10,316 nt of DNA, taken from assembly GCA_007116095.1 (NCBI GenBank), contig SKJD01000159.1:1-10316 (forward strand). The letters run 5' to 3'. How positions within the stretch are numbered: the first letter of the stretch is position 1; each line of letters opens with the position of its first letter. A program made the translations under genes and the position numbers. Positions 4,829 through 8,780 of the stretch are shown here, piece by piece. The notes beneath the pieces are model-generated. The model worked only from the letters and a program-made list of their open reading frames with translations. It had not been told where the DNA came from and made no database searches. This DNA comes from Candidatus Hydrogenedentota bacterium (lineage in GTDB: Bacteria; Hydrogenedentota; Hydrogenedentia; Hydrogenedentales; SCBR16-9).

Positions 4829-7369
4829 ATGGCAGTAGAAAACAAAGCGACCCCCAGCATAATGGGCCGGGGGCCTGAAGGTTTTGATGCACCTGGGTAC
4901 GTGGAGAATTATACACCTGATTGTGTAGCTGAGGCAAAAGCGCACCTTGATGGGCGTTCTGATGTGCTTCATGTCTGGACGTGGCGGGATCAGGCGAGGG
5001 AAGTCCTGGGCTACACGGCGCGATTTGACTGGGCGAAAAGTCTACCTTTTTTCACCTTTGAGCGCGATGACGAGGGCGTGAAGCGCTGGAAACGTCCGGC
5101 GGAAAAGCCCTGGCCGCTGTTTGGCCTGGATAGCCTGGGGCGTGATGGGGATGTATTCGTCACGGAAGGCGAAAAGGATTGCTGTGCTGTTCAGTCCCTG
5201 GGCTTGATGGCGGTATCGCCTGGGGGAAGTACCTACCCCAATTCCACGGACTGGAAACCCCTGGACGGCGTCGGGCGCGTCTACATTCTTCGGGACAATG
5301 ATCCTGCTGGAGAACAGTTTGCCCAAAAGGTAGTTGACAACCTGGCCCGCCTGGACAGCTCCCCGAGCGCCTTTGTGGCGACGTTGCCAGACTTGCCCGA
5401 AAGCGGTGATGTCTGCGATTGGATAGCGGCCCAGCTTCCGGATTCCGTGGCGTGGAATCAGTTGCAGCCGGTACCCGAAAGCCATGCGGCTGCAACCCGG
5501 GAGGGGCTGTTGAAGCTGTTGCCGTTGGTCAGCACCCCCGGAAAACCTTCTCCCAAGCCAAAGACTCCCCCCAGGCCCGTTGCGCCTTCATTACAGGATG
5601 GGCCGTATTCTGAAACGTACCTGGACCGGATATGGCATGAGGAACTTGCGGCCCTGGCCAGTATGACCCCTGGGGCCGGGGTGAACAACAAAGCGCACAA
5701 TGTGGCGGTACGGCTTGGTGAATTGATTCATTGTGGGCGATGGGGGTACGAGGCTGCATACAACGCGATTTTTGATGCGGTGGTGCGAACGGGATGTGAG
5801 CAAAAACGCTACCCCGCCCATCGGCGAACGATTCAAAATAGCCTTCAGAAGGGGATGAGTGATCCGGATTACAGCGTACCGAGAACGGAGTTGAAGCCGG
5901 ACAGGAAGCGACCGGGAAAGCCGGACAACGGCAGGAAGCCAGGCGCGCCGGGGAATGGGCGTAATGGCAGTGCGGGCATGCCCACGGAGACGACACAGCC
6001 CCCTGGACGGCAGGAAGCGTTGTCAGAGCTGGGGGCGGCGCGGCGTCTGACGGCCCTTCATGCGTCGGATATCAAACACAGCAGCGTGCATGGCTGGTTC
6101 CATTGGGATGGTCGGCGCTGGAAGCCGGAAGCCTTCAAGCCTGTGCGGCGCCTGGCGCAAAAGTTGGGGCATGCCTACCGAGAGGAGGCCGTCGCGCTTC
6201 GGCGTGAAAACCCGGATTTTGACGAACTCAAGTGGATCAAATTTGCGCGCAACCTGGAGCGCAATGCCACCATGGATGCCGTCCTGAAAATCACGGCGGA
6301 TCAAAGCGGTGTGGATGCGGATGCTATCACATGGGATGCGTCCGCCCATCTGCTGAACTGCGCCAACGGGACACTCAATCTGGAGACAGGCACCCTTCAG
6401 GAGCATGACAGAGAAGACTACATTTCCCGTCTTTGTGAGACACCCTACAACGCTACTGATGAATGTTCCCGGTGGCTGAAATTCCTGGATGAGATATTCG
6501 AGGGTGATTCCGAGCTGATCAGTTACCTGCAATGGGTTGCGGGATATGCTCTGACCGGCAACACGGACGCCCAATGTTTTTGGATTTTGTACGGCGGCGG
6601 CCTGAATGGCAAGTCCGTTTTCCTGAATGCGCTACGGCATGCGGTGGGGCTGGAGTATTCTGCGGAGATTGCTCCTGAGTCACTCATGCAGAGCGGAAGG
6701 CCCGGCGACAAGAACTATGCCCTGGCGGCGCTTCGGGCGGCGCGGTTGGTGCTGTCGGCGGAATCCGACCAGGGCAACCTGCTGAATGCTTCGCTCTTGA
6801 AGGCGGCCACGGGCGGCGAACCCATCCAGGCGGAAGTCAAATATCAGCAGCCATTCACCTTCCTGCCGGCGTTCAAGTTGCTATTCGCCACGAACCACAA
6901 GCCACGGATCAAGGACACAAGCCTGGGCATGTGGCGGCGGATACGGCTGATCCCCTTCGAGGTGCAAATTCCACGGGAGCGGATTGATCGGCATTTGCTG
7001 GAAAAACTGAAGGCGGAGCGCGAAGGCATATTGGCTTGGGCGGCGCGGGGCATTCTGCACATGGGCCGGATCGGCAACGAACCCCCGGTACCGGAACGGG
7101 TGAAGGCGGCGACGTCTGAATATCGGGCAGCAGAAGATGTGATCGCTCAATTTCTGGCGGAATGCTGCATGCAGGACTCCAGCTATGTGGCGCGTAGCAA
7201 GGACCTGGCCGAAGCCTACACGGCTTTCAGCGGCTCGAAAATCACGACCAACGCCATGACAAGGACGCTTCAGGAGCGCGGGTTCAAGCGGCACAAAACG
7301 GCGCGAGGTCATGGCGTCAAAGGCTTGGCGTTGAAGGCTGAATTTATCAACGGAAGTAATACGGAATGA
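4829..7369 (+). CDS. TOPRIM primase fused to D5/P4-type superfamily 3 helicase, 846 aa
   Basis: This is the replication protein of the element, expected to prime and unwind DNA at its origin. The N-terminal part (about 50-215) is a TOPRIM domain: catalytic TEGEKD (112-117) and the DxD pair D156/D158 in DNDPAG. No N-terminal zinc-finger is present. A Pro/Lys-rich linker (220-255) leads to a helical PriCT-like region (about 257-346) and a second basic Pro/Gly linker (355-395). A D5_N-like domain starts near 400 (LGAARRLTAL, HGWFHWDGRRW). The SF3 helicase has Walker A GGGLNGKS with K595/S596, Walker B LVLSAE with E645, sensor-1 ATNHKP with N689, and MWRRIRLIPF (701-710) with likely arginine-finger residues. 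The C-terminus (about 770-840) looks like a winged helix. CGGAGGTGG (4814-4822) gives a strong start. The stop codon lies in the TGTCA array. Confidence 0.93.
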   Translation: MAVENKATPSIMGRGPEGFDAPGYVENYTPDCVAEAKAHLDGRSDVLHVWTWRDQAREVLGYTARFDWAKSLPFFTFERDDEGVKRWKRPAEKPWPLFGLDSLGRDGDVFVTEGEKDCCAVQSLGLMAVSPGGSTYPNSTDWKPLDGVGRVYILRDNDPAGEQFAQKVVDNLARLDSSPSAFVATLPDLPESGDVCDWIAAQLPDSVAWNQLQPVPESHAAATREGLLKLLPLVSTPGKPSPKPKTPPRPVAPSLQDGPYSETYLDRIWHEELAALASMTPGAGVNNKAHNVAVRLGELIHCGRWGYEAAYNAIFDAVVRTGCEQKRYPAHRRTIQNSLQKGMSDPDYSVPRTELKPDRKRPGKPDNGRKPGAPGNGRNGSAGMPTETTQPPGRQEALSELGAARRLTALHASDIKHSSVHGWFHWDGRRWKPEAFKPVRRLAQKLGHAYREEAVALRRENPDFDELKWIKFARNLERNATMDAVLKITADQSGVDADAITWDASAHLLNCANGTLNLETGTLQEHDREDYISRLCETPYNATDECSRWLKFLDEIFEGDSELISYLQWVAGYALTGNTDAQCFWILYGGGLNGKSVFLNALRHAVGLEYSAEIAPESLMQSGRPGDKNYALAALRAARLVLSAESDQGNLLNASLLKAATGGEPIQAEVKYQQPFTFLPAFKLLFATNHKPRIKDTSLGMWRRIRLIPFEVQIPRERIDRHLLEKLKAEREGILAWAARGILHMGRIGNEPPVPERVKAATSEYRAAEDVIAQFLAECCMQDSSYVARSKDLAEAYTAFSGSKITTNAMTRTLQERGFKRHKTARGHGVKGLALKAEFINGSNTE

Positions 7370-7466
7370 CACTTTATGACAGTTTGACATTTTTTGCGGG
7401 AACTCTCCTTATATTTGATTGCTAATCCAACAGAGGGAAAAAGTGTCATAGTGTCACAAAGTGTCA
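7367..7466. repeat. Mirror-symmetric array of six TGTCA boxes; possible replication origin or operator
   Basis: TGACA occurs at 7367, 7377 and 7385, and its complement TGTCA at 7444, 7452 and 7462. The spacings are 10 and 8, then 8 and 10, a mirror image. The full arms (7367-7395 and 7438-7466) are complementary at 25 of 29 positions and enclose 42 bases (7396-7437). P4-type helicases are known to bind iterons at their origin, so the location at the end of the primase-helicase gene fits an origin. An operator, or a long RNA hairpin in the leader of the 7487 gene, is also possible. A TTGACA (7384-7389) with TATATT (7410-7415) is present, but the 20-base spacer is long. Confidence 0.6.
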
Positions 7467-7486
7467 CAAAAACGGAGGTGGAGACG

Positions 7487-7948
7487 ATGCGGCGACCAAA
7501 CAACATGAGGGCTTTTGCGATGAACCTACGTCAGGAACTACCCCTATGGCCCAAAGCGGCATATTGTCAGCTGGCACTGGAGATCGGCTTGGATATATTG
7601 GATCATGCTGCGAACCCTGAAGAGGCAACCCATGAGGAAATGGGACGCCTCCGGGATGCCTACGAGCTTCACCGGCGGACGGTGGAACAAGAGCATGCTC
7701 ATTTCGCGGACCTGGTTCACGCGGGCCGATTGCTGGCCCTGGCGGACGCGGCTTCCAATGTGTACGACAAAGCCCGGAACCGGGAACTGTTGTGCTGGCC
7801 CTACCCCGAGGCGGAAGATCCGCACAGCTACCGGAAGGCCTATGAGCTTGGGTTGCGCATGTTGCACCCGTCGGATCAGGCGAAAACCGGTAGTAAACCC
7901 CGTAGTGCGGTTCATGGCGGGCATGAGGAAACGCGGGCAAGCGCCTGA
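7487..7948 (+). CDS. Hypothetical protein, 153 aa
   Basis: I do not recognise this family. The ATG at 7487 is preceded by CGGAGGTGG (7473-7481) with five bases between, the same strong site as at the primase-helicase and tape measure genes. The frame extends upstream to a TTG at 7394, but that part lies in the TGTCA array and reads as a poor peptide. The product is soluble and mostly helical, rich in His and Glu (DAYELHRRTVEQEHAHFADLV) with a LLALADAASNVYDKARNREL helix. The C-terminal 20 residues are low-complexity (KTGSKPRSAVHGGHEETRAS). There is no signal peptide or membrane segment. It lies between replication and head genes, where one might expect terminase, but it shows no terminase, portal or nuclease motif. 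Confidence 0.7.
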   Translation: MRRPNNMRAFAMNLRQELPLWPKAAYCQLALEIGLDILDHAANPEEATHEEMGRLRDAYELHRRTVEQEHAHFADLVHAGRLLALADAASNVYDKARNRELLCWPYPEAEDPHSYRKAYELGLRMLHPSDQAKTGSKPRSAVHGGHEETRASA

Positions 7949-8027: not shown

Positions 8028-8780
8028 ATGGACATTTCGGAGTTGACGGCGGATGAACAATTCACCCTGCTATTCGCGGATTTTATCGATGAGCTACGGC
8101 CCCGACTGACGGCGGAGCTTCGGGACAGGCTTGCGCTGACGCTTCAGGCGGGCGCGTCGGAGGTCACCCAGGCGAAGGTTCGGGACTTGGCGGGCCGACA
8201 AGCGGACACGTTGATCACGAGGCTGGCGGAAACCGAACTTCGCAAATCGGCGGCTGTCATCGCAGAGGGCATTGCCGATGGGCAAAACCCCAGGGCGATT
8301 GCCCGGCGGCTTGAGGAAGTCCGAGGGCTGGATCGGAACCGGGCGGCGACCTACTCGAAATACCGGGAGTACCTAGACCTGCAAGACCTTCCACGGGAAA
8401 CCTACGAACGGCGCCTGGAACGACAATACCAACGGCTTCTCCGGGACCGACGGGAAACGATTGCCAGGACCGAGGCCCGGTATGGCACGAGTGAGGCCCG
8501 GCGCTTCGAGGCGGAGCAACGCGGGGCGCGGTGGAAGTCCTGGGTAACCAATGGGGATGACCGTGTAAGCGACGTATGCGCAAGCAACGAGGCAGCCGGC
8601 GTCATCGCGATTGATGAGGATTTCCCCAGTGGCGTGGCGCAGCCCCCGGCGCACCCCAATTGCCGTTGCACGGTGGCCTATGTGGCTTCGGAGCGGGTTC
8701 GGGACCTGGAAGAGGAGCGGGCAGCGGGACGTATCGAGGCAACCCAATTGGCCCGGGAAAGCGTCCTGGCGGAGGGATAG
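8028..8780 (+). CDS. Phage minor head protein, Mu gpF-like head morphogenesis family, 250 aa
   Basis: This is a virion protein expected in the head or at the portal, where the Mu gpF/SPP1 gp7 family helps head assembly. The N-terminal half is a long helical, Arg/Glu-rich region. The family core is visible from residue 145: IARTEARYGTSEARRFE (145-161), KSWVTNGDDRVSDVC (170-184) and the hallmark PPAHPNCRC (206-214) with His209 and Cys212/214; C184 is the other conserved Cys. Length is near that of single-domain family members. The ATG at 8028 follows AGAAAGGG (8014-8021). No portal gene precedes it here, although this family usually directly follows the portal. The stop is three bases before the ATG at 8784, so translational coupling downstream is likely. 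Confidence 0.9.
   Translation: MDISELTADEQFTLLFADFIDELRPRLTAELRDRLALTLQAGASEVTQAKVRDLAGRQADTLITRLAETELRKSAAVIAEGIADGQNPRAIARRLEEVRGLDRNRAATYSKYREYLDLQDLPRETYERRLERQYQRLLRDRRETIARTEARYGTSEARRFEAEQRGARWKSWVTNGDDRVSDVCASNEAAGVIAIDEDFPSGVAQPPAHPNCRCTVAYVASERVRDLEEERAAGRIEATQLARESVLAEG

Follow-up and report, generated by a model that had tools for sequence, protein, structure and literature searches.

What is the function of six short repeats that form two mirrored triplets and begin at the stop codon of a primase-helicase gene? They were found in a sequence assigned to a Candidatus Hydrogenedentota bacterium, and the stretch of DNA analyzed here (the window) is one whole contig of 10,316 bp from a MAG that is 63.7% complete. 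The contig bears genes for a tyrosine integrase, a DUF1580 protein, a D5-type primase-helicase, a Mu F-like head protein and an HTH protein as well as the start of a tape measure gene. Judged from this gene content, it is part of a temperate tailed phage. Since the window encodes phage structural proteins, namely the Mu F-like head protein (head morphogenesis gene at 8028-8780) and the tape measure protein (gene from 9664, with the contig end inside it), it is a phage fragment and not a PICI, which is a satellite without a structural gene set of its own. In a search for D5_N genes in the genome, the window helicase was the only one found. For the gene behind the repeats (7487-7948), searches of Pfam and PHROGs with an E-value cutoff of 0.01 gave no match. 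A preliminary description of the locus had suggested an origin of the element, or alternatively an operator or RNA switch. According to our analysis, it is highly likely that the phage starts its replication at this array, which follows its helicase gene.

A mirrored six-box array at the helicase stop codon

The array consists of three TGACA boxes followed by three TGTCA boxes (Table 1). The spacings of 10/8 and 8/10 were confirmed, and the helicase stop codon TGA (7367-7369) lies inside the first box, in agreement with the claim that the left arm contains it. The two arms were confirmed as well (7367-7395 and 7438-7466), which are complementary at 25 of 29 positions with 42 nt between them. 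Random sequence had been said not to give such mirrored spacing. None of 300 order-1 Markov copies of the region reached 25 of 29 (the best 29-nt inverted repeat had 19 matches), and 12 order-2 Markov copies of the whole window gave best values of 19-21. The next best 29-nt inverted repeat in the window itself also has 19 matches. In 2000 order-1 Markov copies of 7367-7486 the mean box count was 0.73 and the maximum 5, i.e., six boxes occurred in none of them. The words TGACA and TGTCA are found 20 times in the window, six of them in the array. The spacer between the inner boxes is a candidate melting region, but it is not the most AT-rich stretch, since 194 of 10,256 60-nt windows have the same or a lower GC content. 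Cumulative GC skew, which had been proposed as a check, was uninformative and showed no inflection near 7.4 kb.

Table 1. Features of the helicase gene and the adjacent array in the window
Feature	Positions	Strand	Basis or remark
D5/P4-family primase-helicase gene, 846 aa; C-terminal winged-helix domain	4829..7369	+	predicted recognition helix, residues 807-816
Proposed replication origin, two inverted sets of three putative helicase-binding iterons	7367..7466		layout and recurrence; reader of the boxes inferred from a relative family
Left arm, outer box TGACA, contains stop codon	7367..7371	+	sequence
Left arm, middle box TGACA	7377..7381	+	sequence
Left arm, inner box TGACA	7385..7389	+	sequence
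Spacer between inner boxes, candidate melting region	7390..7443		37% GC vs 57% in the window
Right arm, inner box TGTCA	7444..7448	-	sequence
Right arm, middle box TGTCA	7452..7456	-	sequence
Right arm, outer box TGTCA	7462..7466	-	sequence

Recurrence of the layout behind related helicases

Close relatives of the window helicase were not confirmed in viral_contigs, and the best hit in a protein search, in which the 7999 candidates sharing most words were scored, showed about 39% identity over 53% of the query. Because no near kin was found, the proposed comparison of the region behind the helicase gene was done with distant kin and with one dense other family. The distant kin comprised 20 loci (from the top 23 of 47 places listed across 100 genomes), and 160 further loci were the best 80 from each of two scans with an alignment in which the window helicase was combined with 25 homologues. 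The set of 181 loci included 175 with a helicase ORF (3 without stop), of which 166 had 400 nt downstream; dereplication at 70% left 82, which include the window and draw partly on the best-80 lists. Inverted repeats were counted blindly, with 20-nt arms at a distance of 20-120 nt, from -100 to +300 of the helicase stop. A separate array detector required no fewer than 2+2 boxes, two or more of them exact.

The layout occurs widely across the helicase family. Of the 82 helicase 3' ends, 37 carried an inverted repeat of at least 17/20, compared with 0/72 helicase 5' ends, 1/162 3' ends of other genes, 1/328 random windows of the same loci and 1/82 Markov shuffles. The array detector alone was positive at 42/82 helicase 3' ends, at 3/72 helicase 5' ends and 10/162 other gene 3' ends, and in 7/328 control windows and 1/82 shuffles. 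When an inverted repeat of at least 16 was combined with a box array, 34/82 helicase 3' ends remained, against no 5' end (0/72) and one other 3' end (1/162). Neither an inverted repeat of at least 17 nor an array was detected in 33 of the 82 loci. Among the 25 loci of the genome search (the 20 and five more), 19 had a profile match, and 17 of these belong to the window's order. A locus was counted as positive if it had an inverted repeat of at least 16 or an array in which two boxes were exact. The 17 D5-type loci of this order that were examined besides the window gave 13 positives (the misses are L026, L030, L036 and L039), and the two loci of other lineages, L010 and L038, were positive as well. 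Six loci (L041, L042, L044, L045, L046 and L049) lacked a profile match and match only the N-terminal primase-like part; L045 has a GCTACC array by eye.

According to the record titles, the loci with inverted repeats of at least 17 include Anaerolineae, Pirellulales, Riflebacteria, Armatimonadetes, Acetothermia, Nitrospirae, Elusimicrobia, Acidobacteriaceae, Cohnella, Hydrogenophaga and the archaeon Ca. Methanofastidiosum; many of these records are MAGs, and the host names may reflect binning errors. Eleven named phage or plasmid records were scanned, which revealed four clear arrays (AcaML1, phiadh, CL2 and pSINAC02), three weak ones, and none in Vash, Samy, Franklin22 and pGEOTH02. The comparison proposed in the preliminary description thus gave a result that had not been expected: layout and spacing are kept among the relatives, whereas the box sequence is not kept and differs between families. 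The words in the 3' flanks include TTGACGC, ATGAACC, AGTGAAG, TGACAGC, CCGCAAA, TAGACGG and more, and the word mostly changes in concert within one element.

In the 42 array loci, the first box starts at a median of 11 nt past the helicase stop, 98 of 123 box steps measure 8-10 nt, and the gap between the inner boxes has a median of 62.5 nt (IQR 57-66), with which the 50 nt between the 7-mer words of the window agree. The spacer has a GC content of 0.385 compared with 0.551 in the flanks and is lower in 39 of the 42 loci. For box words, polarity and the cross-family correlation described below another set was used, in which an array was present in 92 of 168 loci, or 71 after dereplication. The trinucleotide found most often in the array words is GAC (34/71), which is also part of the box in the window. 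At least two TGAC-core boxes oriented as in the window were found in 26 of the 71 loci and oppositely oriented ones in 1; a looser count gave 40 for, 8 against and 23 neither. In GC-rich elements (e.g., L092, L097 and L212, the latter being AcaML1) the spacer frequently consists of a long stretch in which purines and pyrimidines alternate, for instance (CG)n. For the 19 spacers whose GC is 0.5 or higher, the longest such run averages 21, versus 6 in random stretches from their own loci, and it is longer in 49 of all 66 spacers of at least 35 nt. Such runs may replace AT-richness as the easily opened part. Farther away, at about +2577 (L086) and +1222 (L207) from the helicase stop, long tandem arrays with units of about 9 and 12 nt, respectively, were seen; they have 15 copies on one side in each case, unlike the short origin arrays.

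Covariation of box bases and the predicted helicase recognition helix

Box and predicted recognition helix change together in one phage family. It has 103 distinct members, 95 with the motif S/AQ[RK]RF and 88 with a readable outer left box; the unreadable ones (L272, L126 and L305-L309) all have R. The outer left box carries C in 54 of 54 members with R at a position of this helix and G in 32 of 34 with K, i.e., the pairing holds in 86 of 88, the exceptions being L262 and L268, which combine K with C. Among 342 varying helicase columns this residue is the most informative one on the box base, accounting for 0.87 of its entropy. Third codon positions served as control for a joint exchange of the adjacent box and domain by recombination, and the 97 varying ones in the last 114 codons reached a median of 0.06 and a maximum of 0.49. 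On a tree of the 88 readable members, 14 of the 16 changes between R and K coincide with a box change on the same branch, which accounts for each of the 14 box changes; this tree is one FastTree run without the C-terminal 115 residues in which 18 of 84 supports are below 0.7. An earlier tree of 95 members, in which unreadable boxes were coded as a state, gave 13 of 15, with one of the 13 resting on such a state. The other boxes follow the R/K rule in 82/85 (outer right), 79/88 (inner left) and 75/85 (inner right) cases. Because the box base tracks a residue of the predicted recognition helix and the changes share tree branches, the C-terminal winged helix of the helicase is very probably the reader of the boxes in this family.

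Some members deviate in another way. In L305-L309 and in L105, the boxes of both arms are jointly changed to a GGCGC type while the flank still resembles that of the relatives. Judged by eye, the helicase keeps R, the wing is changed in L305-L309, and L105 shows wing changes of its own behind the predicted recognition helix.

A test across families was less specific. With AAA+ and D5_N held, box similarity was still correlated with similarity of the C-terminal domain (partial r 0.11, reached by 1/1000 permutations), and the same partial r of 0.11 was obtained for D5_N (5/1000). When pairs below 60% AAA+ identity were considered, the corresponding values were 21/1000 for the C-terminal domain and 93/1000 for D5_N. 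The AAA+ core showed no correlation once the other domains were held, and 0.08 alone, which was reached by 36 of 500 permutations. Since box similarity tracks D5_N as much as the C-terminal domain, the cross-family test does not single out the winged helix, whereas the within-family test does so. No close relative of the window helicase was found in the searches, so the probable recognition described here belongs to another family and not to the window's own helicase-box pair. In fold, the model that includes the winged helix matches the SaPI5 primase-helicase. The profile of the helicase C-terminal domain also has a weak match to the eukaryotic RFX winged helix (1dp7, E 0.043).

Known origins, rival explanations and implications

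In the passages of PMC6092414 that describe PICI origins, these lie directly 3' of the initiator gene and consist of two iteron sets around an AT-rich region. The window resembles this arrangement, since its array is located immediately 3' of the initiator helicase gene, with the stop codon in the first box, and has 3+3 boxes around a spacer of low GC content. Moreover, the initiator is a D5-type helicase with a C-terminal winged helix as in SaPI5 Rep (PDB 7ola/7om0). For SaPI5-like helicases, the relevant text of PMC7581432 states that an iteron origin directly downstream is bound by the C-terminal domain, and it reports likewise for SCCmec that Cch2, a helicase resembling SaPI5 Rep, uses this domain to bind short repeats situated directly behind the cch2 gene; SCCmec, unlike the window element, is not a phage. 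The window differs from SaPI/PICI in being a phage fragment, in the word TGACA and in its host, which is probably a member of the Hydrogenedentota, and the comparison refers to the layout and not to box words. Two phages provide a further parallel. In Lactobacillus phage phiadh and Streptococcus phage Sfi21, the deposited origin annotation is situated directly 3' of a profile-matching primase and coincides with mirrored arrays, although their words and detector-derived gaps (ATAGTTT with 90 nt and AGTAACC with 28 nt, respectively) are unlike those of the window.

Phage P4 shares some of these features. Its alpha protein is a homologous helicase (profile match E 1.4e-21), and short repeats in both orientations occur there too; however, P4 has two distinct sites, rep_origin and crr, and the type 1 repeats present in both differ in sequence from the window's boxes. 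Repeats of the P4 ori type (GGTGAACA) are absent from the array, and the sole two in the window, at 237 and 5680, lie inside the integrase and helicase genes. The crr, which contains ori type 1 repeats and has two 120-bp direct repeats, scores weakly with the array detector (6 boxes, 1 exact). In the P4 record (L211, 4291-4590) it lies directly 3' of alpha, with type 1 repeats in both orientations. Therefore, crr and not the annotated rep_origin holds the place of the origins described here. DnaA-dependent iteron plasmid origins have a DnaA box beside the iterons. The consensus of this box is TTATNCACA, and no exact match to it exists in the window.

Taken together, the array is most likely an iteron origin of the SaPI/PICI type in a fragment of a tailed phage. 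The reading as an origin with helicase iterons, already put forward in the preliminary description, is now well supported by the layout at the 3' ends of related helicase genes, by the two annotated phage origins and by the covariation in one family. By extension of the SaPI model, the winged helices of several helicase subunits would bind each box set, so that one helicase ring could assemble on each arm in opposite orientations. The spacer between the arms would then melt, each ring would load on one strand, and two forks would leave the origin in opposite directions.

Other functions have to be weighed against this. The array could be an operator to which DUF1580 or another HTH protein binds in order to control the 7487 gene, with the TTGACA as its promoter. 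Indeed, the array ends 20 nt before this gene, which has a good ribosome-binding site, and the TTGACA noted earlier is present at 7384-7389. However, no promoter-like site was called there, the sole call of a promoter scan of 7200-7700 starting at 7571. The next proteins behind the 71 array loci (69 found) fall into 48 clusters, the largest with 14 proteins, and since the downstream neighbours differ in this way, no one downstream gene is served. Moreover, the best covarying residue of the 342 columns sits in the helicase itself. Overall, an operator is improbable. A hairpin formed by pairing of the arms, which might end or attenuate transcription after the helicase gene or mask the start of the 7487 gene, appears slightly less probable still. 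As RNA, the strand gives a good fold (-35.7 kcal/mol, z -5.1), but the z of the DNA fold is similar (-4.6), as would result from any inverted repeat. Likewise, the two outer boxes match each other in 84 of 85 readable family members, as a hairpin would also give, yet on the left side the outer box matches the inner one in 78 of 85, though pairing needs no such agreement, and the two inner boxes differ from each other in 15 of 85. In addition, the arms consist of tandem boxes in unequal numbers in 28 of 71 loci (e.g., 2+5 or 4+2), no Rfam family matched at the gathering score, and a terminator scan restricted to loops of 3-8 found no intrinsic terminator. Thus, the operator and the RNA switch of the preliminary description are both disfavoured.

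Iteron arrays can also serve copy control, as is established for iteron plasmids. The array might accordingly be a site for partition, incompatibility or copy control that binds the helicase or another protein while replication starts elsewhere. P4 lends some weight to this possibility, because it has crr besides its rep_origin and crr is the one 3' of alpha. On the other side, the records of phiadh and Sfi21 annotate the same place as origin, and the legend of Fig. 2 in PMC6092414 indicates that PICI test plasmids without ori differed significantly from the pri-ori plasmid. We regard such a site as unlikely, again by a shade more than the hairpin. Chance is practically negligible as an explanation, since the Markov copies fell short of the observed complementarity (0/300 local and 0/12 whole-window copies) and the array layout recurs behind related helicases.

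The origin layout of SaPI and PICI has already been known from staphylococcal islands, hence the interesting parts are its breadth and the link between residue and base. Neither the family-wide layout nor this link was found described in a literature search based mostly on titles and the openings of abstracts, with few subscription papers among them. As initiator domain and origin are adjacent and change together, each element may keep a private origin. We lean towards the view that this applies to the D5/P4 family of primase-helicases in general, whether they belong to phages, plasmids or islands and perhaps also to archaeal elements: a private origin behind the helicase's own gene would combine a fixed geometry (steps of 8-10 nt, a gap of about 62 nt and a preferred polarity) with a free box word, recognition helix and boxes would have been repeatedly re-coded together, following a code that can in part be read from single residues (R to C, K to G), and the window would represent one such lock-and-key pair. 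The origin of a phage from an uncultured lineage can be named from sequence alone, and the same rule could name origins for many elements with a helicase of the D5-type family. Moreover, the covariation offers a way to study how self-loading helicases locate the origin and by what route compatible replicons diverge.
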